This document shows, piece by piece, positions 9,646 through 57,300 of a stretch of DNA of 58,990 bases (position 1 is the first letter of the stretch; every line of letters starts with the position of its first letter). The notes beneath the pieces were generated by a model. It was not told where the DNA came from and did not search any database. It worked only from the letters and a program-made list of their open reading frames with translations. The DNA lies in the NCBI RefSeq assembly GCF_020176795.1, contig NZ_JAIUKE010000014.1:1-58990 (forward strand), given 5' to 3'. The stretch comes from Streptomyces sp. 8L (GTDB lineage: Bacteria > Actinomycetota > Actinomycetes > Streptomycetales > Streptomycetaceae). The position numbers and the translations under genes were made by a program.

Positions 9646-9686
9646 GAGTGGTGTGAGCCGATCTGTGTCGGAGCTTGCGCCCGGGG

Positions 9687-13671: not shown

Positions 13672-13693
13672 AGGTACGAAATTGATCGTACCT
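13672..13693. promoter_or_regulatory. Palindromic operator, site 2
   Basis: A 22-base palindrome with perfect arms AGGTACGA and TCGTACCT around AATTGA. Its centre lies 40 bases from that of site 1, close to four helical turns, so bound dimers would sit on the same DNA face. It lies on the monooxygenase side of the divergent region. Confidence 0.75.
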
Positions 13694-13786
13694 TGGTCAG
13701 GTTGCACCGCCCCGTGCCGCCGCTCCCTCAGACCCGGCCCGGCACTCGCCAGAACCCGGTCATCGACACTCCGAGAGGTCAACGTC

Positions 13787-14929
13787 ATGAAGAAGCCCGA
13801 CGTGCTGATAGTCGGCGCCGGAATCGCAGGGCCCGCACTCGCCCACTGGCTCTCCCGGAATGGATACCGGCCGACGGTCGTCGAACACGCCCGGCAGCTG
13901 CGCTCCGGTGGTAGCGCGATCGTCGTGAAGGGGCCCGCGATCCCGGTCGCGGAGCGCATGGGCATCCTCCCGCAGCTCCGCGAGCTCGCCACCCGCAATC
14001 GGTCGCTGACCCTGCTCGACCCCGGCGGCAGGCGAATCCTGCGACTCCCGCTCACCTCGGACAACGCGCCGACGGTCGAGGTGACCCGAGCCGACCTGTC
14101 CGAGGTGCTCCACCGGTCGGCGCAGACCGAGGCCGAGTTCTTGTTCGACGACACGATCACCGCTCTCGACCAGGACGAAGGCGGAGTGGACGTCACCTTC
14201 CGACGGTCCGCGCCACGGCGCTTCGACTTGGTAGTCGGTGCCGACGGGATGCACTCCGCCGTACGGCGCATGGTATTCGGGCCCGAGCGGCAGTTCGCGG
14301 GAGACCTGGGCCTGTACGGCGCGACCGTCCCGCTGGAACCCGACGCCATCGAGGACCCGACCGAGATGACGATGCTGACCGTGCCGAACCGGATGCTGGT
14401 CCTCCATCCCTCGCGGACCACCCCGCTCGCGATCTTCACCTTCCGGTCCGCGCAGCCGGCGCCCCACGACCGCAAGAACATCGCCCTTCACAAGCAGACC
14501 GTGGCCGACGCCTACGCCGACGTGCGGTGGCGGGCACCGGAACTCGTGGCAGCCTTCCTCGACCACCCGGCCCCGTTCTTCGACCCCCTGACCACCGTCC
14601 GGGTGCCCTCGTGGTCCCGCGGACGGGTCGTACTGCTCGGGGACGCCGCGGCGGCCACGGCCCTGCTGGGTGACGGGTCCAGCATGGCCATGGCGGGCGC
14701 GTACGCCCTCGCAGAAGAGCTCGCCGCCCATCCCGGCGATCACGCCCGCGCCTTCGCCGCCTACGAGTCGCGGCTGCGCCGTGAGGTAGGCCCGCGGCAG
14801 CGACGCGTCGGTCTGCTCTCCAGGCTCATGGTGCCCCGCACCCGGCCGGGCCTCGCGGTGCGCAACACGGTGGGCCGCGCGGTCGGTCGCACGAACCGGA
14901 TCACCTCTCGCGAAGCCGCGAACCGGTAG
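13787..14929 (+). CDS. FAD-dependent monooxygenase (class A)
   Basis: A 380-residue flavoprotein hydroxylase from ATG 13787 (GAGAGGT upstream). The Rossmann GxGxxG for FAD is VGAGIAGPALAHWL near residue 10; the DG motif is VGADGMHSAVR near 150; the GD motif is VVLLGDAAAATALLGDGSSMAM near 280. The usual Pro after the GD motif is absent. The closest general type is the PHBH-fold antibiotic-inactivating or tailoring oxygenases. With its divergent repressor it looks like an inducible detoxification pair. It uses NAD(P)H and oxygen to hydroxylate an aromatic or drug-like substrate; the substrate is unknown. Confidence 0.88.
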   Translation: MKKPDVLIVGAGIAGPALAHWLSRNGYRPTVVEHARQLRSGGSAIVVKGPAIPVAERMGILPQLRELATRNRSLTLLDPGGRRILRLPLTSDNAPTVEVTRADLSEVLHRSAQTEAEFLFDDTITALDQDEGGVDVTFRRSAPRRFDLVVGADGMHSAVRRMVFGPERQFAGDLGLYGATVPLEPDAIEDPTEMTMLTVPNRMLVLHPSRTTPLAIFTFRSAQPAPHDRKNIALHKQTVADAYADVRWRAPELVAAFLDHPAPFFDPLTTVRVPSWSRGRVVLLGDAAAATALLGDGSSMAMAGAYALAEELAAHPGDHARAFAAYESRLRREVGPRQRRVGLLSRLMVPRTRPGLAVRNTVGRAVGRTNRITSREAANR

Positions 14930-19801: not shown

Positions 19802-22608
19802 TTACTGGGGTGCCGCGTGCCCCCACGGATCAGCTAAGCGGAGGCGTCCTCTGCGGCGGGGTGTGGGGGGCGGTTGGGGGCCGAGGCGGGAGAGCAGCTG
19901 CACTCGTGAGCTGACGCCCAGTTTGCGGTAGATCCGGGTCAGGTGCTGTTCCACCGTGCTGGTCGTGAGGTAGAGCTTGCCGGCTATCTCCCGGTTGGTC
20001 AGGCCCTTTGCCGCGACCTTGGCGACCCTGCGCTCCGCGTCGCTGAGCGCATGCATGTCGGCTTCCGTCTGCTCCAGCATGTCCGGCGTGCCGACTTGCG
20101 GAGCGGGCTTTTCCGCGAAGCACGCCTGCCTTATTCCGTTGGCCTTGCGTGCCACTGACCGGGCCTGGCCGGCCTCACCGAGTTGGGTGTACGCGTCGTG
20201 CAGCGCGGTGAGCGCGCACGCCAGCTCGAACTTGTCCCCGCTTCGGTGCAGTACGTCCACGGCCTCGCGCAGCATCGGTGGTCGCAGGTGCAGTTCGCGG
20301 GTCGCCGCCAGCAGCCGCAGCGTGCGTCCGCGCACCCGCATGTGGCCGTCCGTGCCGATCCGGCGCAGCTGTTCGCGGGCGTAGCGCGCGGCCATCTCGT
20401 GGTTTCCGAGTTGCAGGTGAGCCGCGGCCATCTCCGTGCGCCACGGCAGCGTCTCGGTCTCGGCCATCCCCCACTGGTCGAGCAGGTCACCCACGGTCTG
20501 CAGATCGTCGAGTGCGACTTGCGCGAGACCGCGCTCGACGTAGTGACGGCCGCGCGCCAGCAGATAGGACAGGCCGAACGGCGTCTCGAACATCACGTCC
20601 GGCACGCGCAGGGCGAGTGTGCGTGCCGCTTCGTCGTGTTTGCCCTGCAGCGTTTGCGCTGTCAGCAGGGTGGTCAACGGTTCGGCGGCCAGCACGCCCC
20701 AGTCGGCGACCGGGATGAGTTCGAGCGCGGCGGACGCCCGGGAGACCGCGACGCCGAGCGAGCCCCGGCGCAAGGCGATCTCCGCCGCGATCGCGCAGAA
20801 CAGCGCACGCCAGGTGGGCGCCTGGAGGTCGTGGCAGGTCTGCACCAGTTCCCTGCACCGCTGCTCGGCTTCCTCCAATCGCTCGGCGTACACCATCGTG
20901 TGCAACGCGAGGACGACCGGCAGCAGATTGATCTCCGTCAGCGGCTGCTGCCAGAACGCCTCGTCCGCCTGGACCAGGCATTCCGCGGTCGCCCCTTGGT
21001 GGTGGGAGCTCTGAAAGTGTTCGAGTAACCGATAACCGATGGCGCCAGGAGGCATGATCGGCGTACCGCTCGTCCTGCTCTCGCCGGCCACGCGCCGGAA
21101 GATGCCCGGATATATGTCGGCCAGCCACATCCGTACCATCTCGAACTCCCAGGAGGGCCGGGAGCCCGGCGGCACGTCGGCCGCCAGCCGGGAGAGCACG
21201 GCGCAGGCGTCGGCCACCCGCCCCTGGAGCAGCAGCATGATGATGGGCATCGTCGCGTGCCGGCCCTTGAGCCGGCCGCCCAGCATTGCCTCGGTCAGCT
21301 CGGACAGATGCCCGACCGACGCCCGCAGATCGTCCCGCCACCCCGCCCGCAGCAGCAGGGCAAGAACCTCCACTCGACGCCGGCCCTCGGTGTCGACCTG
21401 GTACGCCAGCCGCAGCAGCTCTGTGGCCCGCCGCGAGTGGCCCTCCTCCAGCGCCTGCTGTGCCCCCTCCACCAGGGTCAGCACGGCCGACGGGTCGTCG
21501 AGACGGCCGGAGGCGACGAAGTGCTCCGCGATCGTCAGGGAGTCCGCGCCGCACGCCTTGAGCAGGTCCGCGGCCCGCCGGCTCAGCTCGGACCGGTCCG
21601 CGGCCGAGAAGACGTTGAGCACGGCGCCGGCCATGATCGGGTGCCGCAGCCGGCCGGCCTCCACCAGACCGGTCCGGGTCAGTACCTGCATGGCGACAGC
21701 GACCCGGTCCGACGCGGCATCGACCAGGCGGTCCAGGAACGCGAACCGCGACGGCTCACCGATCACCGAGATCGCACCCGCGACCCGCAGCGTCACCGGA
21801 TCGCACCGGCTCAGGACGAGCTGGACCGCCCGCTCGAACTCGGGCCCGGTGTGCAGCTCGGCCGGCGGCCCGTCGCCGCGGGCGGCAGCCCAGCTGTCCT
21901 CCAGCAGCGCTTGCAGCAACACCAGATTGCCGCCGGTGAGCCGGTGCGCCTCCGCGGCCAGTTCCGTCGAAACGGACGCGAGGAGTCGCTTGTTCATGAG
22001 TTCTCCGACGCCGCTCGCCGACAGTGGAGCGAGTAGCAGCCGCCGCAGGTAGGCCTGTTGGCAGAGTTCGGCGCACAGGAGCCGGGAGTTGCTCGGAGAC
22101 ATCTGGACGTCGTCGTCGCGCCAGCCGAGGACGATCAGGATGCGGGCGAGCCCGGCACGGCGGATCAGATAGATCAGCCAATCCTGGGAGAACCCGTCGA
22201 GGTACTGCGTATCGTCTATGGCGATGACGACCGGGCTCTGCTCGGCCAGCTCCAGAACCGCCGTCGCCAACCCGTCCAACACCCGGGAGCGGCTCACCCC
22301 GTCGCACACCGCGTCGGCGAGGAGCTGGTGGTCGAGCAGACCGCGTACGATGGCCGCCCTGTCGCGGTCGAAGACGTCACCAGCGAGCAACTGACGCACG
22401 ATGCCCAAGGCGAGCGACCGCTCGGTCGGCGCCCCGCTCGCCTGGAGCAGTCGCGCCCCCGCCCCCGAGCCCGGCCGCCGAACTCCTCGATCAACGCTGT
22501 CTTGCCCGTCCCCACAACCCCTTGGAGCACGACGACCCGCACGCCCCCGGCGGCGGACTCGTCAAAAGCCGCAGCCAGCTCAGCCAGCTCAGACTCTCGC
22601 TCGATCAT
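19802..22608 (-). pseudogene. LAL-type LuxR regulator, apparently frameshifted
   Basis: Two frames make one large ATP-binding LuxR (LAL) regulator of about 935 residues, the usual size. From ATG 22608 (AGGGA upstream) the first frame reads MIERESELAELAAAFDES and VVLQGVVGTGKTALIEEFG (Walker A). Then, in a C/G-run region (about 22452-22482), it goes out of frame. The other frame resumes RLLQASGAPTERSLALGIVRQLL, then VVIAIDDTQYLD (Walker B), TPR-like helices and the C-terminal HTH (ALSDAERRVAKVAAKGLTNREIAGKLYLTTSTVEQHLTRIYRKLGVSSR). It lies at the edge of the PKS cluster and is probably its pathway activator. A one-base sequencing error is an alternative to a true pseudogene. Confidence 0.8.
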
Positions 22609-23429: not shown

Positions 23430-24794
23430 TCACTGGCTGGAATCCCGGTGCGCCTGGCGGAATGCGTTGATGCTGCCGAGGTGCCGGGCACGTTTGTCGT
23501 TGTCCCGCACGCCGAGGCCTTCTTCCGGCGCGAGGCACAGTACGCCGACCTTGCCGTGGTGCGCGTTGCGGTGCACGTCCAGCGTGGCCTGACCGGTGTC
23601 CTCCAGCGCGTAGGACTTCGACAGCGTCGGGTGGATGAGCCCCTTGTCGATCAGCCGGTTGGCTTCCCACGACTCCCGGTAGTTCGCGAAGTGCGATCCG
23701 ACGATCCGTTTGAGGTTCATCCACAGGTACCGGTTGTCGAACTGGTGCGTATATCCCGAGGTGGACGCGCAGGTCACGATCGTGCCGCCCTTGCGGGCCG
23801 CGTAGACCGAGGCGCCGAACGTCTCCCGGCCCGGATGCTCGAACACGATGTCCGCGTCGTCGCCGCCGGTCAGCTCCCTGATCCGGGCGCCGAACCGCTG
23901 CCACTCCTTCGGGTCCTGGGTGTGCTCGTCCCGCCAGAACCGGTACCCCTCGGCTCTGCGGTCGATGACCAGCTCCGCTCCGAGGCGGTGGCAGATCTCC
24001 GCCTTCTCCGGACTGGACACGACGCACACCGGGATGCCGCCGCCGTTGAGCACGTATTGCGTGGCGTACGAGCCGAGCCCGCCGGAGGCTCCCCAGATCA
24101 GGACCACGTCGCCCTGTTTCATGTTCGCGCCGTTGCGCGACACCAGCTGCCGGTACGCGGTCGAGTTGACCAGCCCGGGGCTTGCCGCCTCCTCCCAGGT
24201 CAGGTGCGCGGGTTTGGGCATCAGCTGGTTCGCCTTCACCAGCGAGATCTCAGCGAGGCCACCGAAGTTCGTCTCGAAACCCCAGATCCTCTGCTCTGGG
24301 TCGAGCATCGTGTCGTCGTGGCCCTCGGGGCCCTCCAGCTCGACGCTGAGGCAGTGCGCCACGACCTCGTCGCCCGGCTTCCAGCGGTGCACCCCGGGAC
24401 CGGTCCGCAGCACCACGCCCGCGGCGTCCGAGCCGATCACGTGATGGGGCAGGTCGTGCCGCTTCGACAGCGGGGACAACTTTCCGTAGCGCCGGAGGAA
24501 CGTGAAGGTCGGCAAGGGCTCGAAGATCGAGGTCCAGACCGTGTTGTAGTTGATCGCGCTCGCCATCACCGCGATCAGCGCCTCACCGGGCCCGAGCTCC
24601 GGTGTGGGGACCTCCTCCACGTGCAGCGACTTGCGCGGGTCCTTGTCCGCGCCGTCGATGCCCTCGAACATCGAGGTCTCCTCGGCGTGCACGGTCACGC
24701 CGCGGTAGCTCTCCGGCACCCGCAGCCCGGCCAGCGCGCCCGGGTCCCCGGTCACGACGGCCTGCTGGATCTCCTTGAGCTCTGCGTTCGGCAC
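23430..24794 (-). CDS. ccr: Crotonyl-CoA carboxylase/reductase
   Basis: A 454-residue medium-chain reductase from GTG 24794 (GAAGGAAAG upstream). It converts crotonyl-CoA, CO2 and NADPH to ethylmalonyl-CoA, and related enoyl-CoAs to other branched extender units. Hallmarks are SAINYNTVWTSIFEPLPTF, DLPHHVIGSDAAGVVLRTGPGV, RIWGFETNFGGLAE, WEEAASPGLVNSTAYRQLV, the nucleotide fold WGASGGLGSYATQYVLNGGG and GSHFANYRE. Length matches characterised CCRs. It lies in the PKS cluster on the same strand and should feed the AT with the atypical motif. The broader CCR family also makes longer-chain malonyl-CoAs; ethyl is the default inference. Confidence 0.93.
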   Translation of the reverse strand: MPNAELKEIQQAVVTGDPGALAGLRVPESYRGVTVHAEETSMFEGIDGADKDPRKSLHVEEVPTPELGPGEALIAVMASAINYNTVWTSIFEPLPTFTFLRRYGKLSPLSKRHDLPHHVIGSDAAGVVLRTGPGVHRWKPGDEVVAHCLSVELEGPEGHDDTMLDPEQRIWGFETNFGGLAEISLVKANQLMPKPAHLTWEEAASPGLVNSTAYRQLVSRNGANMKQGDVVLIWGASGGLGSYATQYVLNGGGIPVCVVSSPEKAEICHRLGAELVIDRRAEGYRFWRDEHTQDPKEWQRFGARIRELTGGDDADIVFEHPGRETFGASVYAARKGGTIVTCASTSGYTHQFDNRYLWMNLKRIVGSHFANYRESWEANRLIDKGLIHPTLSKSYALEDTGQATLDVHRNAHHGKVGVLCLAPEEGLGVRDNDKRARHLGSINAFRQAHRDSSQ

Positions 24795-25317
24795 GGCTTT
24801 CCTTCTTTCACTGGTCCGGTCCACGACAGGAGGCCCGGGTCGGCCTCGTCCTCCTCGCCGGCGGCACACCCTGCCGGGTGCCACCCGCCGTTCCCCGCCG
24901 TTCCCGTTCGCCGGCGGGCCGTTGCGGCCGCGGAGTCAAGGAGGTGAGCCACCGGCTCCGCTGGGCCGCGCCCGGAGCGTTTCGGCCCGCCTCGCCGTGT
25001 CGGCCGGGCGCCGGCCGCTCCGCCGAGCGTCCCGCGCGGACGTGCCGACTCTTCGGTCCAGCCGGCGACATCGGGTCCGAACACGGCCTCCGGGTCGGCG
25101 GCCCCGAGCGCCTCGTCGATGGCCGGCCGCCCGGTCTCCGGTCCGCGCGGCGCGGCCCTCTCCTCGTAGCGGGAGACCCGTTCGGTCGGTGCTCGCCCGG
25201 CGTGCGCGGCGAGGTCGGTTTCGTGCGGCCTGTGGTGGTCCGGGACGACGGTCTGCCGCGCCCGGCCAGCAACCACCCGCGCTGCGGAGCAGGGCCCTGC
25301 GGGCGAAACGGTCAGGC
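24795..25317. other. Intergenic, no recognisable gene
   Basis: 523 bases between ccr and the SDR gene. Long open frames are Arg/Gly/Pro-rich, with no motif, start context or family. It may hold the ccr promoter. Confidence 0.5.
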
Positions 25318-26151
25318 TCAGTCGCGGTGCGCGGTGGCGAGCGCTCTGCTGCGCCACGGGGCGATCTGCTCCGCGAGCATCGCGTTCTTGGCGTGGTAAC
25401 GCTCGTAGGCGTCGCTGCCCACCAGCAGGTGCGAAGGCAGCGTCTCGCCGTCGGTCACCTCGACGATCAGCGCCGCGCCCTTGACCGGGTCCCCGGGCTG
25501 GGCGTGGTTAGCCGCGCCGACTCCGTCGCGCACGAGGTGGGCGGGGGTGCCGTCGTAGGCCGCCAGCCGCGCCTCGGAGACCGACAGGGAGCTGGCGTCG
25601 AAGAGGTCGGTGCGGAACGCTCCGGGCTCGACGACCATGCTCTGGATTCCCAGCGGACCCAGCTCGGCGGCGAGGGCCTCGCTGATGCCGGCGACCGCGA
25701 ACTTCGATGCGCTGTACAGGCTTACGCCGGGCTCGCCCTCGAACCCCGCCCGGGAGCCGATGTGCACGATCTTGCCCTTGCCGGCCGCGCGCATCGTCGG
25801 CAGGACCGCTCGCGTCACGTTGATCAAACCGAAGACGTTGACGTCGAACAGCGATCTGGCCTCGGCGTCGGTGACCTCCTCCAGCGCACCCACCAGCACC
25901 CGGCCCGCGTTGTTGACCAGGACGTCGATCGTGGCGAACCGATCGACGACCTCGGCGACGGCACGGTCGATCTGGGCCTGGTCGGTGACGTCCAGGGTGA
26001 CCGGGTGGCATCGCTCGGCGTCCCGCAGGTCGTCGGGCAACGTGTCGATATGCCGGGCGCCGACGGCGACATCGTGTCCGGCCTTCAGGGCGTGTCGGGC
26101 TGTCTCAGCGCCCAGGCCTCGGGCGGCTCCGGTGATGAACCATGTCGCCAT
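25318..26151 (-). CDS. SDR-family oxidoreductase
   Basis: A 277-residue classical short-chain dehydrogenase from ATG 26151 with AAGGAGA upstream. The cofactor motif is TGAARGLG at residues 7-14. NNAG at 80-83 follows, and the catalytic Ser 133, Tyr 146 and Lys 150 (YSASK) are present. The beta2 end GARHIDTL suggests NADP preference. The C-terminus is extended (QPGDPVKGAALIVEVTDGETLPSHLLVGSDAYERY), typical of the SDR group that includes many secondary-metabolite ketoreductases. It is probably a tailoring or precursor dehydrogenase of the polyketide cluster; the substrate is unknown. Confidence 0.88.
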   Translation of the reverse strand: MATWFITGAARGLGAETARHALKAGHDVAVGARHIDTLPDDLRDAERCHPVTLDVTDQAQIDRAVAEVVDRFATIDVLVNNAGRVLVGALEEVTDAEARSLFDVNVFGLINVTRAVLPTMRAAGKGKIVHIGSRAGFEGEPGVSLYSASKFAVAGISEALAAELGPLGIQSMVVEPGAFRTDLFDASSLSVSEARLAAYDGTPAHLVRDGVGAANHAQPGDPVKGAALIVEVTDGETLPSHLLVGSDAYERYHAKNAMLAEQIAPWRSRALATAHRD

Positions 26152-26527: not shown

Positions 26528-27709
26528 TCAGGACTCCCCGGCCACCTCATCGGCGTACTTGCGGTTCATGTGCGCGAGCGCCGCGCCGGCAGCGATGCTC
26601 GCTTCCTCGCGCCGCGCGACAATCCGGGCCCGGGCGTTGTGGGACGACTGGGCGTGGGTCGTCCCCGAACCCTGGAAGTGCGGGGCGACCTGACGGGCGA
26701 CGAGTTCCCACGAGCGCCACTTCGCCGCCGGCGCGGCCCAGTCGTGCGCCAGCAGCAGCACGGTGCCGAACCCGCCGGACTGGTCGACCATGCGCTGGAT
26801 CTGGCGGCGGACGTCTTCGGCCGTGCCGATCGCGCCCAGGCCCGATTCGTTGACGAAATCGATCAGCTCCCGTGTGCTGCCGTCGGGCAGTGTGAGACCG
26901 GGTGTGGCCGCATTGTCGTTCAGGTGTCGCAACCAGTCCTGAAGCCCGAACTCGACGTCGCGGTATGCCTGTTCCCGGGTCTCGGCGACGTGCACGTTTG
27001 TGACCAGCCGCCAGGTCGAGCGGTGGGGCTCGGGCCGTCCCGCGTGGGCGGCGCGCTCAGTGGCGATCCCCCAGTGGTACGCCAGGGCGTCGAATCCGTC
27101 CTGGCTCATCGTCGCCCCGAGCGAGATCAGGCTCACACCGCGGCTGCCTGCCAGGCGCGCGCCGGTCGGCGACGCCGTCGCGGCCACCGCGATCTCGAAG
27201 CACGGCTCGGTGAACGGGCGCAGTTGCAGCGTCGCGTCGACCAGCGTGTGGGTTCCGACCGTCGTGGTGACCGACTCGCCGGCCAGCAGCCGCTGAATGA
27301 CGTCGAGATGGGTCTCAAGGAGCTCGCGGCTCTCGGTGGGGGTCATGCCGATCATGGCCACGTCGGAGGGCAGGGAGCCGGGACCGACCCCGAACATCAC
27401 CCTGCCCTGCGTGAGGTGGTCGAGCATCACCATCCGGTCGGCCACCCACAGCGGGTGGTGGTACGGGAGCGAGGTCATGCCGGTCCCGAGGCGTATCCGG
27501 GTGGTGCGCTCGGCTGCCGCCGCGATGAAGATCTCGGGCGAGGCGATGAGGTCCCGGCCGGTCGAGTGGTGTTCCCCGATCCACGCCTCGTCGAAGCCCA
27601 GCCGGTCGAGGTGCGCCATGAAGTCCAGGTCGTGGCGTAGCCACCACGTCGGGTTCTCTCCCAGCGGGTGGATCGGGGGCAGGAACGCACCGAAGCGCAG
27701 GCTAGTCAC
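26528..27709 (-). CDS. Luciferase-like (LLM-class) flavin monooxygenase
   Basis: A 393-residue TIM-barrel flavoprotein from GTG 27709 (GGAG five bases upstream). Bacterial luciferase-family marks are LRFGAFLPPIHPLGENPTWW, DRLGFDEAWIGEHHSTGRDL, TRIRLGTGMTSLPYHHPLWVADRM, DHLTQGRVMFGVGPGSLPSD and later GTAEDVRRQIQRMVDQSG. It uses reduced FMN and oxygen for hydroxylation, epoxidation or Baeyer-Villiger-like steps. The start overlaps the 98-residue upstream gene (GTGA), so the two are coupled. It is a likely post-PKS tailoring enzyme; the substrate cannot be told. Confidence 0.88.
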   Translation of the reverse strand: MTSLRFGAFLPPIHPLGENPTWWLRHDLDFMAHLDRLGFDEAWIGEHHSTGRDLIASPEIFIAAAAERTTRIRLGTGMTSLPYHHPLWVADRMVMLDHLTQGRVMFGVGPGSLPSDVAMIGMTPTESRELLETHLDVIQRLLAGESVTTTVGTHTLVDATLQLRPFTEPCFEIAVAATASPTGARLAGSRGVSLISLGATMSQDGFDALAYHWGIATERAAHAGRPEPHRSTWRLVTNVHVAETREQAYRDVEFGLQDWLRHLNDNAATPGLTLPDGSTRELIDFVNESGLGAIGTAEDVRRQIQRMVDQSGGFGTVLLLAHDWAAPAAKWRSWELVARQVAPHFQGSGTTHAQSSHNARARIVARREEASIAAGAALAHMNRKYADEVAGES

Positions 27710-28002
27710 AAGTTCTCCACCAGGTCGGCGTCCATATCGGTCACTCGCGTCCGCAGCGCTTCCACACGACGGCCGGTGCATGCGCCGGCCGTGGGGCGGC
27801 GCTGACGGGTGTGCTCGGGCGGATCGGTCGGCGCCTGGCGCATGTCCTCGTGGCGCGTGGCCGGCCGACCGGTCTTGCCCTCAGCGAGCCGCAACCGAGT
27901 GCCCGGCCGATTCTGTTGCGGCTCGTTGTGCTGTGGGGGATGGAAGACTGACGGCGCGGGCGGGTAAGGGGTCAAGACTGGCGCCTGGTTGGCATGAGCC
28001 AT
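27706..28002 (-). CDS. 98-residue hypothetical protein coupled to monooxygenase
   Basis: The ATG at 28002 has a strong GGAGG seven bases upstream, and the stop overlaps the GTG of the luciferase-like gene (GTGA). Both argue that the frame is translated. The sequence is Pro-rich and polar (TPYPPAPSVFHPPQHNEPQQN), then basic (RLRLAEGKTGRP), then acidic at the end (VTDMDADLVENL). No Cys pair, membrane segment or known domain is visible. It may simply provide translational coupling, or be a disordered partner of the monooxygenase. The family is not recognised. Confidence 0.55.
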   Translation of the reverse strand: MAHANQAPVLTPYPPAPSVFHPPQHNEPQQNRPGTRLRLAEGKTGRPATRHEDMRQAPTDPPEHTRQRRPTAGACTGRRVEALRTRVTDMDADLVENL

Positions 28003-29459: not shown

Positions 29460-29744
29460 GCCCTTCTTCTCCACGGTGTGATCGGTCGACACGGACGGAC
29501 AGGCCGTCCACACCGCGCGGAAGCAGCATGGGGCCCTGACGCCGGAGTCTCCGACACGGCTACGGGCCACAGTAGTTGATGTGCCGTCACGTGTTTCTCG
29601 CGGGCGAGGGGCCCCGTTGTCCGCCAAGCCGCCGATGACGCTCATGGACTGGGAGCCTTCGCCGCGGCCGGGTCCGCGACCGGGTGTACGGGAAGGAGTG
29701 CACTCGCCGACCGCGGAGACCGGTCACCGCTCGTGGAAGACCAA

Positions 29745-30971
29745 TCACGCAGCTTTGATCGGGATTCCCCGAAGGCCCCGCAGTGTGAAGTCGGGGCCGA
29801 ATTCGATGTCGCCCGCGATCTCGTACTCCGGCAACCTGTCCAGCAGCCGGTTCAGCCAGATGCGCATCTCCATCCGGGCCATATGGATGCCGAGGCAGAT
29901 GTGCGGCCCGAAGCCAAAGCCGATATGTGCTTTACGGAGACGGAAGATGTCGAAGGAGTGCGGGTTGTCCCAGCGGGCGGGATCGCGGTTCGCGCACCCC
30001 AGGAGAGCGACGACCGCGGAACCCTCGGGGATCGTGAACCCCTCGACCTGCGACTCGTCGCTACAGGCAAAGCGGAGAACCGACTGGGTGAGAGTCGACC
30101 AGCGGTGGACCTCTTCGAGTGCGGCCGGAACGAGCGACCTGTCGGCGACCAGCGCGCGACGCTGGTCGGGATGGCGGCCCAGCGCATACAGCATCATCGC
30201 CATCACCTGTGCCGTGCTCTCGTTCGCGGCGACCGTCAGCATCGTCCCGTTCGCCAGTATTTCCCGATCGGGCATGGACGGCGCGAAGTCGTCGAACACC
30301 ATCTGGGCCATGAGCGATCCGTCAGACACGCCCAGCGCACGGTGCTTTGCGATGAGGCCGCCGATGTACGAGTTCAGAGAGACCGCTGCCGCGGCGCCCT
30401 CGGCGACAATCTCTTGGCCCCTCGGAGTCGGGTCGAGCCGTGCGCCGAGAACCGCCGCCGTCGCGTCACTCCATTTGATGAAGTCCTCGTACACGTCCTC
30501 TTCTGCGCCCAGCAGTTGGGCGGTGACAACGGTGGGGATGATCCGCGTCATCTCCGCGAGAGCGTCGAGCGATTCACCGGATCGAAGGCGTTCCACGAAT
30601 TGATCCACGTATACGTCCACAACCTGCTGTATTCGGGCTGCCCAGTCGGCCTCGACAGCCTTGCGCTCGAATCCTGGCTCCCAGATTCCGCGGACCGTCT
30701 GGTGCCGTGCGCCGTCGGTGCCGAGGAAAGTCGGTCCTCCGAACGCCTTCTCCATCTCCGGGAGAACGTTCGCCGAGTTGAAATGGCGGATGTCACCGAG
30801 CACTCGCGCACAGTTGTGATGCGACGTGATCATGTACTGCTGGTGATGGGAGTTATAGACGACCGGCCCCAGACCACGCCATGCGGCCATGGTCTCAAAG
30901 GGGTTCTGCACGAAGTCGGGGTCAAGCATGTTCAGGTCCACGGTGGGACATTCCGCCACTGGAGAGTTCAT
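29745..30971 (-). CDS. Cytochrome P450
   Basis: A 408-residue bacterial class I P450 from ATG 30971 (AGGA six bases upstream). The heme loop is GFGPHICLG, with the ligand Cys about residue 359. The ExxR is in LEEVHRW, and the I-helix VAANESTAQ departs from the usual AGxETT but keeps the acid and a hydroxyl. It begins with a 4-base overlap of the preceding 63-residue gene. It probably carries out regiospecific hydroxylation or epoxidation of the polyketide, with ferredoxin from elsewhere; none is encoded here. Confidence 0.93.
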   Translation of the reverse strand: MNSPVAECPTVDLNMLDPDFVQNPFETMAAWRGLGPVVYNSHHQQYMITSHHNCARVLGDIRHFNSANVLPEMEKAFGGPTFLGTDGARHQTVRGIWEPGFERKAVEADWAARIQQVVDVYVDQFVERLRSGESLDALAEMTRIIPTVVTAQLLGAEEDVYEDFIKWSDATAAVLGARLDPTPRGQEIVAEGAAAAVSLNSYIGGLIAKHRALGVSDGSLMAQMVFDDFAPSMPDREILANGTMLTVAANESTAQVMAMMLYALGRHPDQRRALVADRSLVPAALEEVHRWSTLTQSVLRFACSDESQVEGFTIPEGSAVVALLGCANRDPARWDNPHSFDIFRLRKAHIGFGFGPHICLGIHMARMEMRIWLNRLLDRLPEYEIAGDIEFGPDFTLRGLRGIPIKAA

Positions 30972-31159
30972 TGCACGTCCTGTTGCTGGTCGGGGTCGAT
31001 GTCACCGGCCGTCATTGCGGCCAACACATGTTCAGCGGGCACGTTGTAGCGGTGGGCGTCGAGCGTGTGCAGCTGGGACAGGTGGATGAGCTCATCCTTG
31101 TCCGCCGCCTCGATGAGGCCTCCGCACATCGGGCAGCTCACTTCAAGGCCGGCGTCCAT
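30968..31159 (-). CDS. 63-residue Cys-pair protein coupled to P450
   Basis: A small protein from ATG 31159. It contains SCPMCGGLIEAADKDELIHL then SQLHTLDAHRYNVPAEHVL. The CPMCG pair followed by two His residues (HL, HTLDAH) could form a single zinc site. The size and pattern recall DUF1059-like small proteins, but I cannot confirm that. ATGA overlap with the P450 indicates coupling. It could be a zinc-binding accessory protein; it is not a ferredoxin, because the Cys count is too low. Confidence 0.65.
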   Translation of the reverse strand: MDAGLEVSCPMCGGLIEAADKDELIHLSQLHTLDAHRYNVPAEHVLAAMTAGDIDPDQQQDVQ

Positions 31160-31216: not shown

Positions 31217-32038
31217 TCATGACTGACCCCGACTCTGGGATGCCGCGTCCACGTGCGGCGGTCGAGTGCCTTCGGAGCGGAGGCCGAGGAGCACGCGCCG
31301 CACACAGTCGGCTATCTCGGCGACGTGCTCGTGTATGAAGAAATGGCCCCCGGTCAGGACCGTCATCTCGAAGGACTCCGCAGTGTGTTCCCGCCAAGCA
31401 CTCGCCTCCGCAAGCGTCACGCTCGGATCGCGATCGCCCGTTATGGCCATGACCGGCACGTTCAACACCGTCTGTGCTGTGGGCGCGCGATACGTCTCGA
31501 CGGCACGGTAATCGCCGCGGATCACGGGAAGGATCATGCGCCGCATCTCGTCATCGTCGAGGAGAGCCGGATCGGTTCCGCCCAGCGACCGGAGGTTGGC
31601 GATGAAACTGGCGTCGTCGGCCGCGTGCACGTCCTCATCGCGAGGACATGACGGGGCGCGGCGCCCGGACGCGAACAAGGCGAGCGGCGCACGTCGATTT
31701 TCCCGCTCGAAGCGACGCGCCACCTCGAACGCGACCACGGAACCCATACTGTGACCGAAGAGTGCGAGTGGCTGCGTTTCCCAGGGGGCCAACGCCTCAT
31801 AGATCTCATCGGCGAGCCTGCCGATGTCCTCGATCAAAGGCTCGTGGCGGCGGTCCTGCCGGCCCGGGTACTGGACTCCGAGCACCGAGATATCCGGTTC
31901 GAGAGATTTCGCCAGAGCGTGGAAATATCCGGCGGAGCCGCCCGCGAACGGAAAGCAGACGAGGTGCACCTGGCTGCGCTGGGCTGCGTTCCGCAGCGGC
32001 CTGATCCAGGACCCGCCGCTCGTGGTTGATTCGTACAC
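31217..32038 (-). CDS. Type II thioesterase
   Basis: A 273-residue alpha/beta hydrolase from GTG 32038 with AAGGAAC upstream. The sequence VHLVCFPFAGGSAGYFHALAKSL and VLGVQYPGRQDR is the classic TEII start. The nucleophile is in LALFGHSMGS (Ser 97); Asp is in ITGDRDP and the final His in TGGHFFIHEH. It removes misprimed or decarboxylated acyl groups from PKS carrier proteins and is not the chain-release domain. It lies mid-operon. The C-terminal Arg/Pro-rich tail is probably disordered. Confidence 0.92.
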   Translation of the reverse strand: MYESTTSGGSWIRPLRNAAQRSQVHLVCFPFAGGSAGYFHALAKSLEPDISVLGVQYPGRQDRRHEPLIEDIGRLADEIYEALAPWETQPLALFGHSMGSVVAFEVARRFERENRRAPLALFASGRRAPSCPRDEDVHAADDASFIANLRSLGGTDPALLDDDEMRRMILPVIRGDYRAVETYRAPTAQTVLNVPVMAITGDRDPSVTLAEASAWREHTAESFEMTVLTGGHFFIHEHVAEIADCVRRVLLGLRSEGTRPPHVDAASQSRGQS

Positions 32039-32186
32039 GTTCCTTCTTTCTCGGGCCACGCGGCCGGCGACACTTCTGATCGGCGCCTGGGAATCTGAAG
32101 CAATCGATGCACGGGCACGTGGTCAGCACCGCCACGGAGAGTCAGGCCGTCCGACGCGCGACGGCCGCCTCGGGGTGTGGCCCAGC

Positions 32187-32663
32187 CTACTGATCGAACG
32201 GGCTCTGCCCAGCCGGAAACGCGAAGGTACCGACTTCGGGCCTGGTCAACGGGATCACTTTGCGGCTGGAGAACTTCCAGACCCCGTCCTCGCGGACGTA
32301 TTCGTCCTTGTAGTACGCGGTGGCCCGAGAGATCCCGCCGGCCCGCACGTCGCCCTGGGCGAAGACATGGCAGTTGCCGGACGCCCGGGATTCGAGAATC
32401 TCGTTGATCACGTGATTGACCGTCATGTGACAGAGATTCTCCATCTGTCCGTATATGTCGGCCTCGAAGTGATGCCGGATCTCGTCCTTTCCCGTGAACT
32501 TGCCCAGCCCGAAGTCCTCTTCGTCGAAAACCGGGCCGGCGTCGCTCCACAGCTCCATCAACGCATCGAACTGGCGCGTGTCCAGCCGATAGGCGTATTT
32601 GGCCGTCAGCTCGATGATGTCGAGTCGGTCGACCATTCGAGAGAGCGTGTTCTCTGCCATCAT
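32187..32663 (-). CDS. SnoaL-like (NTF2-fold) protein
   Basis: A 158-residue protein from ATG 32663, preferred over the next ATG because AGGAGG lies seven bases upstream. The NTF2/SnoaL_4 pattern is clear: LDIIELTAKYAYRLDTRQFDALMELW, FTGKDEIRHHFEADI, HMTVNHVINEILESR and YYKDEYVREDGVWKFSSRKV. Such proteins act as cyclases, isomerases, hydrolases or hydroxylases in antibiotic pathways; the fold alone does not decide. His pairs (RHHF, CHM, VNHV) could be catalytic. It is one of two SnoaL-fold proteins in this operon. Confidence 0.85.
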   Translation of the reverse strand: MMAENTLSRMVDRLDIIELTAKYAYRLDTRQFDALMELWSDAGPVFDEEDFGLGKFTGKDEIRHHFEADIYGQMENLCHMTVNHVINEILESRASGNCHVFAQGDVRAGGISRATAYYKDEYVREDGVWKFSSRKVIPLTRPEVGTFAFPAGQSPFDQ

Positions 32664-32758
32664 GGGGAATCCTCCTAGAGCTTGTCCGCGCATGAGACGC
32701 GAACTGGATTGGGGTTGGCCAATGAGCGACGTCTTGTTCCGTGAGCGGTGACCAGCCG

Positions 32759-33601
32759 CTATCGAAGCTTGTTGGGAAGCATCATTCCGGCGTCCACGGG
32801 AAGGGTGATCCCGGTAACGTGACGCGCCTCTTCCGACGCCAGGTAGACCACGGCGTCGCTGACCCCCTGCGAGTCCAGCCAGCCGACGGGCAGCGCACTC
32901 ATTTCTTTCATCACGTTGTTTGCGGCCTCCGGTGTCGGATCAGGGACTTCGGGCAGGTAGAGCTGCCGCATCTGGGCGTTGTTGACCATCGGCGTGTCGA
33001 CATTTCCCGGATTGACCGAGTTCACGCGTATGTTGTGCGGTGCCAGCTCTGCCGCCAGGGCACGCATCAACCCGACGACGCCGTGCTTGGACGCGGTGTA
33101 GTGCGCCATGGTCGGTACGCCGATCAACCCCGCTGTCGAGCTGATGAAGACCAGCGAGCCGCCCTCACCTCGTTCGATCATGTGCGGAATCACCGCTTTG
33201 ACGGTTTTCCATGATCCCGTCAGGTTGACGTCGATGATCTCCTGCCAGGCTTCGTCGGTGAGTTCCCACGAGAACCCGAAGCTTGACATTCCGGCATTCG
33301 CGCACACGACGTCGATGTGCCCGAACTCGGCCATCGCCTCGTCGACGACGCTCTGCAACTGCTCGGAGTTGCGTATGTCCGCCTGGCGCGCAAGGGCCCG
33401 CCGGCCCAGCTTTTCGACCAGTTGCGTCGTCGACGCAAGATCCTGGTTGTTCGCTCCTGGATACGGCGTGGTTTCGAGTTCTGCGCACAGGTCGACAGCG
33501 ACGATGTCCGCCCCCTCTTGGGCAAGTCGCACCGCATGCGAACGTCCCATTCCACGCGCGGCTCCTGTGACCAACGCGACTTTCCCTGCGACCCGGCTCA
33601 A
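32759..33601 (-). CDS. SDR oxidoreductase with nicotinoprotein-type insert
   Basis: A 280-residue SDR from TTG 33601; GGAGGG seven bases upstream supports that start. TGAARGMG is at residues 12-19, NAG at 102-104, Ser 154/155, Tyr 168 and Lys 172 (YTASK). A roughly 20-residue insert after the second strand (ELETTPYPGANNQDLASTTQ) is typical of the mycofactocin-coupled SDR subfamily, which binds NAD tightly and needs an external acceptor. It is probably an alcohol-to-ketone tailoring enzyme in the polyketide pathway. No mycofactocin genes are in the window. Confidence 0.87.
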   Translation of the reverse strand: MSRVAGKVALVTGAARGMGRSHAVRLAQEGADIVAVDLCAELETTPYPGANNQDLASTTQLVEKLGRRALARQADIRNSEQLQSVVDEAMAEFGHIDVVCANAGMSSFGFSWELTDEAWQEIIDVNLTGSWKTVKAVIPHMIERGEGGSLVFISSTAGLIGVPTMAHYTASKHGVVGLMRALAAELAPHNIRVNSVNPGNVDTPMVNNAQMRQLYLPEVPDPTPEAANNVMKEMSALPVGWLDSQGVSDAVVYLASEEARHVTGITLPVDAGMMLPNKLR

Positions 33602-33705: not shown

Positions 33706-34128
33706 TCACTCGGCAGCGGCAAACATGATCAGTTTCACGTCGGCTCCTTCCACCTTGCCCAGATCGTAAGGACGCCAGGCCATGAAACCTGTTTGGCCGA
33801 GATACCGGCCGCTGGTGCCCACGCTCGGGTAGTAGGCCCAATTACCCGACAGGAGTGACCCGAGATCGATCCAGCCGGCGACCCGGATCGTTCCCGACCC
33901 GTCCTCGAAGACGACTTCGTTGGTCAGATAGGCCATGAACTGCTGATCGGATTCTCGCTGGTAGAGGATCTTGTAGCCGCCCGAGGTGGTGGCTACCTTT
34001 TCACCGGACTTGGTGAACAGGGCGTGCTCGTAGGTACCGCCCTGGCCGACCTGGATGTTCTGGAAGTCCTCGATGTCAGTGGTGGCGCTGATCGTTGTCT
34101 CGACCAGTTCCTCGTAGCTGTTGTTCAC
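33706..34128 (-). CDS. Allene-oxide-cyclase-like beta-barrel protein
   Basis: A 140-residue protein from GTG 34128 (GGGAAG upstream). It is beta-rich with the AOC-like barrel pattern: GQGGTYEHALFTKSGEKVATT, then YKILYQRESDQQFMAYLTNE, FEDGSGTIRVAGWIDLG, and a late VGTSGRYLGQTGFMAWRP. In bacteria this barrel type includes enzymes proposed or shown to catalyse polyketide cyclisation, such as spirotetronate [4+2] cyclases. It sits between two SnoaL-fold genes and an SDR, directly downstream of a PKS predicted to make a conjugated diene. A pericyclase or other ring-forming role is attractive but inferred. Confidence 0.75.
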   Translation of the reverse strand: MNNSYEELVETTISATTDIEDFQNIQVGQGGTYEHALFTKSGEKVATTSGGYKILYQRESDQQFMAYLTNEVVFEDGSGTIRVAGWIDLGSLLSGNWAYYPSVGTSGRYLGQTGFMAWRPYDLGKVEGADVKLIMFAAAE

Positions 34129-34156
34129 GGCTTCTTCCCTTTCTTGACGGGGCGTT

Positions 34157-34516
34157 TCAGACCTTGCGGTAGACGTCTTTGAGAGTGATCTTTCCGTCGC
34201 TCAGGATGAAGAGGTCAACACCGCGGTTGACCACCTTTCCTTCGTCGGTCTCCACGGTCCACCGAACCAGCCCCATGTTCTCGTCGAGCATGATCGGCGA
34301 CTCGAATTTGCCGTCGACCCCGGACGCGATCATCTTTTCGCGCATCGCGTTCATGCTGGTGATCAGATCACCGATCTGATCCTTGGTGTGGACCGTCCCG
34401 ATTCCGTCCCCGTCGGGCGTGATCCACTGCCCGTCGTCGGCGAAGCACGCGACGGCGGTCTCGATGTCGCCGGCCCCCGAGCTCTCGAAGAACCGGTCGA
34501 TGACTTCTGCTGACAT
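34157..34516 (-). CDS. SnoaL-like (NTF2-fold) protein, second
   Basis: A 119-residue protein. ATG 34516 is chosen because the family starts close to it (EVIDRFFESSGAGDIETAVACFAD) and GAGAG lies upstream. An ATG at 34558 overlaps the P450 stop (ATGA) and would add 14 residues. The pattern QWITPDGDGIGTVHTKDQIGDLI, LVRWTVETDEGKVVNRGVDLFIL and a final KDVYRKV is the classic SnoaL-like small cone fold. It could be a cyclase, isomerase or epoxide hydrolase of the polyketide pathway. It ends 28 bases before the AOC-like gene. Confidence 0.82.
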   Translation of the reverse strand: MSAEVIDRFFESSGAGDIETAVACFADDGQWITPDGDGIGTVHTKDQIGDLITSMNAMREKMIASGVDGKFESPIMLDENMGLVRWTVETDEGKVVNRGVDLFILSDGKITLKDVYRKV

Positions 34517-34554: not shown

Positions 34555-35805
34555 TCATGCGTGCAACCTGACCGGCAGCCGCTCCAGACCGCGGAACTGC
34601 AGGGTGTAGCGCCAGGTGAGCTGTTCCAGTGGCTCGGCCGCCTCCCAGCGCGGGAACCTGTCCAGCAGCCGGGCCAGCACGATTTCGCCCTCCAGGCGTG
34701 CCAGCGGCGCGCCGACACAGTGATGGATACCGTGGCCGAAGGCCAGGTGCGTAGCGGCGTTACGGCGTATGTCCAGCCGGTCAGGCTCCGCGAACCGCTC
34801 CGGGTCGCGATTCGCCGAGGACAGCGCCAGAAACACCACCTCGCCGGCGGGGATGACCGTATCGCCGACCTCGACCGGTTCGGTGGTGTAGCGCAGTGTG
34901 GAGAGGTTCAACGGGCTTTCGTAGCGCAGGAATTCTTCCACTGCGTTCGGTATGAGAGTGGCATCTCCGCGCAACAGCTCCAGCTGTTCGGGGTGCTTCA
35001 GCAGAGCGTACACCGAGCTGCTGATCAAGTTCGCGGTGGTCTCGTACCCCGCGTTCATCATCAGGAAGATGGTGGACAGCAGCTCGGACTCTTCGAACCG
35101 CTCCTCGTTGGCCGGGTCGATCAGCGCGTTGATCAGGTCGTCCGCACCGTCCTGGCTGCTCGTTTTCTGGGCGACCAGGGTCCGGAAGTACTCAAGCGAC
35201 GCCATATAGGCCTGATACTTCTCCGACGGCTCGGAGTCGACGCTGGTCAGCGCGCGGTTCCACCGGCGGAGATCCTGGTGGGCGGCGCGGGGTACGCCGA
35301 GCAGCTCGCCGATCACCGCGATGGGGATGGCCATCGCCACCGACTCCACCAGGTCGATCTCGGCTCCCCTCGGGATCGAGTCAAGCAGCTCGTCGGTGAG
35401 TTCCTCGATGCGCGGCCGCAGATCCAGTGTCCTGCGCATCGTGAACGCCCTGCTGAACATCCGGCGCAGCCGCGAGTGTTGCGGCGGATCGCTGAACAGC
35501 ATGCTCTCCGACGTGATCGACGCGCCCGAGACGTCCTCGGTGCTGTGCCTGGCGATGACCGGTGCGGCGGCCCCGGCCGCCTTCGAGAGTCTGGGATCGG
35601 CCAGCAGCCGGCGCACATCGGCGTATTCGGTGACCAGCCACGAACGCAGGCCTGTGCTCAGGGTCTTGATGACGAGCCGCCGAGGTCCCGTCCCGGCGCG
35701 CATCTCCTGGTAGGTCAGGTACGGGTCCTGGATGAAGTCCCAGCTCAACAGGTCGGCCTCGGCTGTCTCGGTGCCGGAGGCGCGGGTCTTCGTGGAGTCG
35801 GTCAT
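34555..35805 (-). CDS. Cytochrome P450 (macrolide-type)
   Basis: A 416-residue P450. The heme loop FGHGIHHCVGAPLARLE has its Cys about residue 363. The I-helix MNAGYETTANLI is canonical, ExxR is in VEEFLRYESP, and FSDPPQHSRLRRMFSRAF is the usual C-helix block. The CYP107-like character suggests oxidation of a macrolide or related polyketide. It is the first gene after the large PKS (63-base gap), so it is probably translated from the same transcript. Confidence 0.94.
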   Translation of the reverse strand: MTDSTKTRASGTETAEADLLSWDFIQDPYLTYQEMRAGTGPRRLVIKTLSTGLRSWLVTEYADVRRLLADPRLSKAAGAAAPVIARHSTEDVSGASITSESMLFSDPPQHSRLRRMFSRAFTMRRTLDLRPRIEELTDELLDSIPRGAEIDLVESVAMAIPIAVIGELLGVPRAAHQDLRRWNRALTSVDSEPSEKYQAYMASLEYFRTLVAQKTSSQDGADDLINALIDPANEERFEESELLSTIFLMMNAGYETTANLISSSVYALLKHPEQLELLRGDATLIPNAVEEFLRYESPLNLSTLRYTTEPVEVGDTVIPAGEVVFLALSSANRDPERFAEPDRLDIRRNAATHLAFGHGIHHCVGAPLARLEGEIVLARLLDRFPRWEAAEPLEQLTWRYTLQFRGLERLPVRLHA

Positions 35806-35868: not shown

Positions 35869-54356
<18,488 letters not shown>

Positions 54357-54360
<4 letters not shown>

Positions 54361-57300
54361 GAGGTCGGCCCCTCCGCTCGGTCGGACGCGTCGGCTCGGC
54401 CGTTTGCGGCGCGTATGAGATCAGCCATGTCCATCGAGTCGATCGCGGTCGTGGACCCGGCGCTGTCGGCCGGCTCGCCGCCGCCGGGTGCGGTCTCGGC
54501 CAGCCGGAGCAGGGCGTCCACCAGGCCGGCCTGCCTCAGCGAGGCGATCGGAATGCGGTCGATGATCTTCTTCAGTCCGGCGTCGTCGACGCCCTCGCCG
54601 CTCTCGCTCCCGTGGGTCTCGGTGTCCTCGCCGAACAGTTCGGCGTACACCAGCTCCGCGACCGCGGCGGGCGTCGGGTAGTCGAAGATCAGCGTGGCGG
54701 GCAGCTGCAGGCCGGTCGCCATGCCGAGCCGGTTTCGCAGCCGCAGGGCGGTGAGCGAGTCGAAACCGGTCTCCTGGAAACTGCGCCCCGACTCGACCGA
54801 GCCGGCGTCGGTGTGTCCGAGCACGGCCGCCACCGTGGTCCGGACGAGGTCGGTGATCGCATACGTCCGCTCGGTGGCGGGCAGGCCGGCGAGCCGCTCC
54901 CGCACACCGGTGCCCGCCGCTTCGTCCGCCGGTCCTTCGGGGTCGTCCGCCCTCGTTTCGAGCAGCTCGGCCAGGAGCGGCATCGATCGGGTGCCGACGA
55001 GTTCGGTGGCGAACGAGGACCACTCGACGTCCGCCACGACCGCTGCCGTCTCGTCGCGGTCGATCACCTGGCCCATGGCCTCGATGGCGCCGCCGGGGTC
55101 CATCGCGCGCAGGCCGCGGGCCGCCAGCTGGTGCCGCACGTCGTCGCGGTCGGCGATCCCCGGGCCCTGCCACAGTCCCCAGGCGATGGAGGTCCCGGTC
55201 AGGCCGAGGGCCCTGCGGTGTGCGGCCAGTGCGTCCAACGAGCTGTTCGCGGCGGCGTAGTTGGCCTGGCCGGCCGGGCCGACCGTACCGACGAACGACG
55301 AGAACAGGACGAAGTCGAGGAGGTCGTGGTCTCTCGTCAGCTCGTGCAGGTGCCACGCGCCGGCCACCTTCGGGCGGAACACCCGCTCGAAGCGTTCCGG
55401 GGTGAGCCGGTCGATGACGCCGTCGTCGAGCACGCCCGCGGTGTGCACGACCGTGGTCAGCGGATGTTCGGCCGGCCAGTCGGCCAGCAGGGCGGCGAGC
55501 TGCGCCCGGTCGGCCACGTCGCAGGCGACCACCGACACCACGGCGCCCTGCTCGGTGAGTTCGGCGGCCAGTTCGCCCGCGCCGGGGGGGGCGGGGCCGC
55601 CCCGGCCGGCCAGCACCAGGTGTCGCGCGCCGCGCCGGACGAGCCAGCGCGCCGCCTCCGCCCCCAGCGTGCCGGTGCCGCCGGTGATCAGCACGGTGCG
55701 CGGGAGGGGTTGGTTCGTGCGGGGCGCGGGGGCGGTGACCCGGGTCAGGCGGCGGCGGAACACCGCGCCGCCTCGTACCGCCAGTTCGCTCTCGCCGTCC
55801 GAGAGGGCGCCGGCCAGCGCCGCGAGGTCCGCTTGGCCGACGTCGCGCGGCAGGTCCACGACGCCGCCCCACGACGCGGGTTGCTCCAGGCCCGCATGCC
55901 GGGCGAACCCCCACAGCGCGGCCTGCCGTGGCTGGGTGACGGTGTCTCCGGGCCGGACGGCGACCGCGTCCTGGGTCACGCACCAGACCGGGGTCGACAG
56001 GCCGAGCCCACTGACCGCCCGCACCAGCGCGAGCGTGCCGCTCAGGCCGACCGGCACTGATTCGGTGTCAGTGTCCGTATCGGTGTCGGTGTCGGTGTCG
56101 GTGTTGAAGGCTGTGTCCGTCGCCAGCAACGACAGGATGTTCCCGGCCGGTTCGCCGTCCAGCGCCGCGACGAGCTGGTGACCGAGCGCCTCGGCATCGG
56201 TCGCTCGGGGGACGTCGACCCGGCCGACCCGGGCCCCTCGGGCGCTCAGCGCCTCGATGACCTGGTCGAGCCATGTCGGCTCCGTCGTGTCCGCCGGGAC
56301 CAGGACCAGCCAACGGCCGGTGAGCGGTCGGCCGGGTCCCGGGGCGGGGCGCCAGGTGACGCGGTACTGCCAGCCGGCCAGCGTCGCCTGCTGCCGGCTG
56401 CGCTCACGCCACGACGACAGGGCCGGGAGCACGGTGCTCAGCGAGGACCGGCCGGCGTCGTCGGAGAGGGCGAGCGCCGTGGTCAGTCCGTCCAGGTCGC
56501 CCTGGTCGACCATCGTCCAGAACGGGCTGTCGGCCTCGGTGCCGCGAGACGGGCGGCCGGGCCGCGTCTCGATCCAGTAGTGGGTGTGCTGGAAGGCGTA
56601 GGTGGGCAGCTGTACCGGCCCCCGGCCCGAGGGGAACAGGTTGGACCACCGCACGTCGACGCCACCCGCGAACGCCTCGGCGGCGTTGCGCAGGAATTCC
56701 CGCGCGCCGCCGTGGCCGCGGCGGAGCGTTCCGACCGTCGTGACCGGCGTTTCCCTGGCGTCGGCGAGCTCCTGTACCGAATGGACGAGTACCGGGTGCG
56801 CGCCCACTTCGTGGAACGATCGGTGTCCGTCGCTGAGCAGCTGGTCGACCGCCTCCGCGAATCGCACCATCTCACGCAGGTTCCGGTACCAGTAGTCGGC
56901 GTCGAGTTCGCGCCCGTCGAGCAGCGAGCCGGTCACCGTCGAGTAGAACGGAACCGTGCCGGGCGAGCACTCGACCACGCCCAGTGTGTCGGCCAACTCG
57001 GCCCGGATGACCTCTACTTCAGCCGAGTGCGACCCGTAGTTGATGGGTACGCGCCGGACCCTTGCCCCCTCCGACTCCCAGACCGACAAGAGCTGGTCGA
57101 GCTCGGCGGTGGCCCCGGAGACGACTGTGGACATCGGTCCGTTCACCGCGGCGATGCCGAGCGCGCGAGTGCCGGCGAGGCGTTCGCGCACCTCGTCCGC
57201 CGATCGGTTCACCCAGCCCATGCCGCCGTGCGCCGCCAGACGCCGGAGCACCCGGGATCGCAGAGACACTACGCGCGCGCCTTCGGCGAGCGTCAGCGCT

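Follow-up and report, generated by a model that had tools for sequence, protein, structure and literature searches.

For the cochleamycins and macquarimicins, chemists have long proposed a route that combines a Knoevenagel condensation with a transannular Diels-Alder reaction. Here we compare a small SnoaL-fold gene and the adjoining AOC-like barrel gene of Streptomyces sp. 8L with their closest described relatives. For the barrel the best solved relative is PDB entry 5dyq, which we take to be AbyU, the abyssomicin Diels-Alderase (the label in the entry itself is YD repeat-containing protein). For the SnoaL-fold gene it is CatM, with three PDB entries (9iq5, 9iqm and 9iqn), among them structures, released in 2025, with the substrate mimics L6S and, for the W86A mutant, L6R. 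The titles of these entries name no reaction, and a literature search by PDB codes, protein names and topic, which covered few subscription journals, listed nothing recognisable as a description of CatM, SacM, MicM or an AOC pairing. AkaM (9iq3) is of the same SnoaL subfamily as the protein of our locus (E 4e-15, about 30% identity) and presumably corresponds to Orf8-525 of the akaeolide cluster. In the part of the akaeolide study available to us (Zhou et al., PMC4306953), a P450 is proposed to oxidise the terminal methyl to an aldehyde and the SnoaL-like Orf8-525 to close a C-C bond onto an activated methylene, and the P450 Orf8-524 precedes Orf8-525, as is also seen in our locus. The same part gives an acetate starter and a beta-keto-delta-lactone product, like the chain predicted for our cluster, and the authors judge the DH domains of m3 and m6 of the akaeolide PKS to be not functional; unlike our locus, the gene table there names no AOC-like barrel and the proposed pathway contains no cycloaddition. 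Among AOC-like proteins, the accessible part of PMC10946715 describes Trp124 and Phe41 of AbyU as an aromatic pair across the lumen found 'in many instances', and the rearrangement enzymes Tsn15 and Tmn8 as having neither the head salt bridge nor the stacking aromatic pair.

The window, by which we mean the whole stretch of 58,990 nucleotides that was analysed (contig NZ_JAIUKE010000014.1, G+C 70%), appears to hold most of a modular PKS cluster for a polycyclic carbocyclic polyketide (Table 1). A preliminary description had placed a 140-residue barrel 28 bases downstream of a SnoaL-fold gene, preceded by a P450 and a diene-making PKS and followed by an SDR and a second SnoaL-fold gene. This layout was recovered in full, with the P450a gene directly preceding the SnoaL gene and the predicted diene coming from the consecutive modules M4 and M5, and the suggestion of a candidate cyclisation pair placed after an oxidase, with a diene in the chain, is retained as a predicted function. 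Also the outer boundary proposed for the pair, 34516, was right: the SnoaL ORF is listed from 34558, with an inner ATG at 34516 which is the likely start, since the solved orthologue starts there and since in S. varsoviensis an in-frame TAA stands ahead of the matching ATG, at which the ORF of that copy begins. A scan of GTDB contigs gave seven named loci (Streptomyces coffeae, S. varsoviensis, S. pyxinicus, Streptomyces sp. NEAU-Y11, S. olivaceus, S. iranensis and Saccharothrix coeruleofusca), all seven with the order P450, SnoaL, barrel, SDR, SnoaL_4 at 78-97% protein identity (88-97% for the barrel). The GC3 of the barrel and SnoaL ORFs (0.79 and 0.82) is of the coding type and, taken with this conserved five-gene order, argues that the gene pair is not due to chance. 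On these comparisons P450, SnoaL protein and barrel together are a real, conserved cyclisation cassette, its ring chemistry being predicted.

Table 1. Features of the window, with coordinates in the window and the supporting matches
Feature	Positions	Strand	Evidence or remark
AOC-like barrel protein, candidate [4+2] cyclase	33706..34128	-	140 aa; PF18678, 9.8e-44
SnoaL-fold protein, CatM orthologue (AkaM family)	34157..34516	-	119 aa; 9iq5, 6e-72
Cytochrome P450 (P450a), usual partner of CatM-type gene	34555..35805	-	PF00067; nearest solved 8w6z and TamI
SDR, mycofactocin-coupled subfamily	32759..33601	-	TIGR03971, 401.7 bits (cut-off 300)
Second SnoaL/NTF2-fold protein (SnoaL_4), dehydratase-like	32187..32693	-	PF13577, 5.5e-18
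Type II thioesterase (typed by being free-standing)	31217..32059	-	PF00975; 6 of 7 named loci
Presumed ferredoxin of 63 aa, judged by size and place	30968..31159	-	counterpart of 82.5-86% identity in 4 of 7 named loci
Second cytochrome P450 (P450b)	29745..30971	-	PF00067; 5 of 7 named loci
Luciferase-like monooxygenase	26528..27781	-	PF00296; 4 of 7 named loci and the G005 and G298 clusters
Second SDR	25318..26151	-	PF00106; 5 of 7 named loci
Crotonyl-CoA carboxylase/reductase (CCR), branched extender supply	23430..24884	-	TIGR01751, 596 bits; 5 of 7 named loci
LuxR-family regulator	19802..22408	-	PF00196; G298 and G005 clusters have copies of 85-90% identity
FAD-binding monooxygenase	13682..14929	+	37% identical to one in L039
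PKS: M3 (no reduction), M4 (DH-KR), M5 (DH-KR), M6 (KR)	35869..54360	-	
Module M4, first diene module	45886..51345	-	KS-AT-DH-KR-ACP; catalytic motifs present; AT motif YPTH
Module M5, second diene module	40756..45885	-	KS-AT-DH-KR-ACP; catalytic motifs present
PKS module M2 (KS-AT-KR-ACP)	54357..58988	-	contig ends inside M2 at 58990

The SnoaL half of the pair is, by its sequence, already known as the orthologue of a solved protein. It matches CatM at 112 of 119 residues (94%), with the same start and seven substitutions, and W86, the residue mutated in 9iqn, is conserved. The corresponding protein of genome G005, which has the same neighbour genes as the window, is also 112/119 identical to ours and is identical to CatM throughout (119/119); therefore, the window cluster can be taken as an orthologue of the CatM cluster. 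Foldseek was used for its entry titles alone ('CatM, SnoaL-like protein', with SacM, MicM and AkaM as relatives), as the query model built from eight close sequences was of low confidence, and the kinship was drawn from sequence; the VIA-align result (best Z of 5.9, mixed with unrelated folds) was given no weight as fold evidence. It may be noted that a comparison with AbyU, PyrI4 and IdmH had been suggested. For the SnoaL protein no entry named IdmH occurs among the 40 matches listed (E up to 1), where CatM, SacM, MicM and AkaM entries are present instead, and an IdmH-type Diels-Alderase was set aside as the less likely reading of this gene because CatM is far closer. The expectation of undescribed enzymology is not supported for this half, 94% identical to a protein with three PDB entries. 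It has evidently been studied elsewhere (structures with substrate mimics), which lowers the novelty and leaves the role of the barrel directly testable.

The SnoaL subfamily was searched at two levels, with matches in 8 of 297 genomes of the family and 4 of 394 of the class, our own included in both. Seven loci lie outside the window lineage (L079-L085). A P450a homologue of 50-56% identity adjoins the SnoaL gene in six of them; the barrel comes next in three (G143, G126 and G912), while G197, G038 and G822 have the P450 but no barrel. The remaining locus (G922, the weakest SnoaL match) has neither P450 nor barrel. AOC_like domains by themselves are common (70 of the 297 genomes of the family). 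On examining the best 29 places besides the window, out of the matches in these 70 genomes, a CatM-type gene was found beside the AOC_like domain in 2 of the 14 neighbourhoods around other such domains (again G143 and G126). The barrel itself, searched phylum-wide, matched in 2 of 396 genomes, one being our own and the other having an E value of 7.9e-4, and a plasmid search for it gave no match. Judged from this distribution, P450 and SnoaL gene make up the core, to which some lineages have added a barrel with a history of its own.

Against PF18678 (AOC_like) the barrel scores 148.5 bits (curated cut-off 25.9) and covers domain positions 1-123 of 123. In a sequence search its top PDB match is 5dyq (3.6e-21), followed by AbmU (3e-14) and PyrI4 (0.03), so that of the relatives named in the preliminary description AbyU is confirmed and PyrI4 is marginal. 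From the homology to AbyU we infer the barrel fold; the AlphaFold model from the single sequence, with a mean pLDDT of 44.8, is too poor for judging the pocket. A barrel tree was made from 40 loci. Ten of these (L003, L015, L023, L025, L026, L027, L029, L030, L031 and L032) had no barrel within the limits set (E no higher than 1e-4, length at least 80 aa), and L087 was dropped because it repeats the gene of L084; together with the AbyU stretch this left 30 tips. All 14 cassette rows fall in one clade with support of 1.0. These represent 12 genomes, since L005/L035 and L007/L037 are, judged by contig number and length, the same contigs. AbyU and the neighbour L006 lie outside, AbyU on the sister branch, and on this tree the AOC half of the cassette is a distinct sub-clade, apart from AbyU.

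The position of AbyU as best solved relative and in the sister branch would favour a barrel that acts as a spirotetronate cyclase of the same kind. Spirotetronate pathways make a tetronate and are not known to use TE release. Here a TE domain ends the PKS, the cassette clade excludes AbyU, and none of the ten flank proteins scanned (seven from G005, three from G298) is a tetronate-forming gene; on these three grounds the AbyU-type function was discarded, and we give it almost no credence.

The residues of the lumen bear on the type of reaction. To number the AbyU chain we applied one constant offset, which suits both residues of the aromatic pair described in the available part of PMC10946715, and on this numbering W118 and Y33 of our barrel align with the Trp124 and Phe41 columns. 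The Trp/Tyr pair is kept in 14 of 14 cassette rows of the barrel alignment (12 distinct genomes), and Tyr is retained in the window barrel at the AbyU Tyr106 column. On the other hand, the column of the head salt-bridge residue described in that part of the paper, Arg122 in Cyc15, where AbyU has Arg too in the alignment, holds Met116 in the window barrel and Met in all 9 distinct barrels of the window lineage, whereas the other cassette sub-clade (three genomes) keeps the Arg and has Cys at the Tyr106 column. Thus our barrel resembles AbyU in family, aromatic pair and Tyr, and differs from it in Met116, in its separate clade and in its CatM-type neighbour. Since the bridge is likewise absent in Tsn15 and Tmn8, as the paper describes them in the portion available, the reaction may differ from a plain [4+2]. 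It could be another pericyclic reaction or a rearrangement, as with Tsn15, instead of a [4+2] to a decalin, and the distinctness of the barrel clade from AbyU would suit this as well. We regard this as improbable, since the likeness to Tsn15 and Tmn8, which is drawn from those descriptions, stops at the salt bridge. They have no stacking aromatic pair, whereas its equivalents are kept in our barrel, the sister sub-clade retains the Arg, and the PKS offers a normal diene and tether. We keep the [4+2] cycloaddition as the preferred predicted function of the barrel in what follows.

As the contig ends inside M2, the remaining modules were read elsewhere: contig C97 of our own genome carries the loading-module KSQ, M7, M8 and M9 with a thioesterase, and M1 was read from the orthologous clusters of G005 and G298. 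Starter, TE and overlapping genes suggest how the four PKS proteins follow one another, and on this arrangement the line is KSQ-malonyl, M1 (DH-KR), M2 (KR), M3 (unreduced), M4 and M5 (DH-KR), M6 (KR), M7 (DH-ER-KR), M8 (DH-KR) and M9 (unreduced, with TE), ending in ACP-TE in C97, G005 and G298 alike. In all four complete PKSs (G005, G143, G126 and G197) the starter is KSQ-malonyl and M1, M4 and M5 are DH-KR, which places the start of the conjugated diene exactly four carbons past the terminal alkene. These four carbons, set by M2 and M3, separate diene from dienophile and would make a decalin the expected ring. In 5 of 6 PKSs a TE comes after an unreduced last module (the stretch of the sixth, G822, did not resolve), which points to a beta-keto acyl end and hence an acidic methylene, as the cassette would need for an enal and acidic-methylene route. 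The penultimate module has a DH beside the KR in G005 and G197, and KR alone in G143 and G126. The M8 DH motifs look intact in G005, our own genome and G298; if this DH is active the hydroxyl for the delta-lactone would be lost, which counts against our best explanation.

Taking these observations jointly, we consider it fairly probable, with moderate confidence, that the P450 makes an enal, the CatM-type protein closes a C-C bond and the barrel performs a [4+2], most likely to a decalin, giving a polycyclic carbocyclic polyketide. The chain released by the PKS would carry a beta-keto-delta-lactone on one side and CH3-CH=CH- on the other, and the allylic methyl of this second terminus would be oxidised by P450a to give the enal. 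Between the acidic lactone carbon and the aldehyde the CatM orthologue would then form a bond, by an aldol or Knoevenagel reaction like that proposed for the matching akaeolide step, to give a macrocarbocycle. The barrel would hold the folded chain in its lumen and catalyse a [4+2], either intramolecular or transannular, in which the M4-M5 diene adds to the M1 double bond, the latter activated by the newly made carbonyl; in this PKS the new bonds would be C10-C19 and C13-C18. The SnoaL and barrel steps may occur in either order.

The same PKS also allows a different division of labour, in which ring closure by the SnoaL protein is of the C-O type (oxa-Michael, tetrahydrofuran or tetrahydropyran), the P450 hydroxylates only, and the [4+2] of the barrel is the sole carbocycle. 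M2-M3 of the window PKS leave a hydroxyl and a ketone, suiting ether closure, and in the available part of PMC4306953 akaeolide has a cyclic ether to which the authors assign no gene. But the role proposed for the family in that part is C-C closure, and the acidic methylene set by the unreduced last module and TE goes with the cassette in the five PKSs counted above; we hold C-O closure to be unlikely. Another reading needs no catalysis by the small proteins, the rings forming spontaneously after oxidation and the proteins merely binding or protecting intermediates. G197, with diene and tether but no barrel, points this way, and it follows from this genome that a diene does not demand a barrel; yet three other diverged loci keep the barrel beside the SnoaL gene, with invariant residues in common, and we find spontaneous closure very improbable.

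If the enal, C-C closure and [4+2] module works as proposed, genome sequences could be used to predict the ring pattern in a family of polyketides that are still unexplored: a P450 with a CatM-type gene would indicate a macrocarbocycle, and where an AOC barrel joins them a [4+2] ring would be expected. Genetically tractable enzymes for testing the natural transannular Diels-Alder route would be a further gain. The finding would matter more if the barrel is a decalin-forming or transannular Diels-Alderase. A tentative extension, possible but in our estimate rather doubtful, is that P450, CatM-type protein and AOC barrel form a portable module which takes a linear polyketide with a beta-keto-lactone end and a diene on a four-carbon tether to a decalin-fused macrocarbocycle through a transannular Diels-Alder reaction. 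If true, the barrel would be a bacterial AOC-type decalin synthase and the module an enzymatic counterpart of the route that chemists proposed, with its Knoevenagel and transannular Diels-Alder steps.

The SDR following the barrel had been called nicotinoprotein-like. Its subfamily holds (TIGR03971, with carveol dehydrogenases as nearest PDB entries), but the cofactor part is weakened: the mycofactocin radical-SAM maturase (TIGR03962) is above cut-off in one of the eight cluster-bearing genomes, G298 only, and our own genome reaches a best score of 60.3 bits against a cut-off of 265. With the maturase absent at cut-off in the other seven, mycofactocin coupling was rejected, and the SDR probably works on ordinary NAD or another carrier. 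The second SnoaL protein has weak PDB matches to LinA (1.3e-6), with scytalone and bile-acid dehydratases weaker still; MonBI and MonBII are weakly matched by this protein only (E 3e-4). Epoxide-opening chemistry, which had been offered as an alternative to pericyclic closure, found no positive support and was set aside, no dedicated epoxidase being identified in the conserved block. The flanks of both window and G005 do contain FAD-binding monooxygenase genes, and a luciferase-like oxygenase lies in the cluster. The window and G005 FAD proteins share only 25% identity (37% for the one in L039), and for this reason they were not treated as cluster genes, although they may belong to the pathway.

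A branched extender unit is suggested by the CCR gene together with the AT motifs of M4 (YPTH) and M7 (VAGH), which we presume to be unusual motifs pointing to extender choice. The M7 AT of G005 (L043, 11851-18135) has GQSCG in place of the usual GHSxG active-site motif and is possibly an unusual extender-unit AT. G143 and G126 (L064 and L066) belong to another, smaller PKS lineage, which keeps the gene order P450-SnoaL-AOC-SDR and in which three consecutive DH-KR modules would give a triene instead of a diene. The orientation of the CCR-SDR-luciferase block relative to the cassette differs among G298 (L049-L050), G005 (L041) and the window, which implies block-wise rearrangement of the cluster. 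At its edge, L037 shows a partial match to the LuxR-family regulator. Between P450b and the luciferase-like gene lies a methyltransferase (28629-29645, - strand) with no match in the loci of 11 relatives; in 18 loci the only stretch was one of 32% identity elsewhere in G298 (L046), and the gene may be specific to this strain. Further away in the window, a 1522-aa protein (5215-9783, - strand) carries a C-terminal pretoxin-HINT and a CdiA-CT type RNase A domain, and this product of a gene near the PKS cluster looks like an interbacterial polymorphic toxin.
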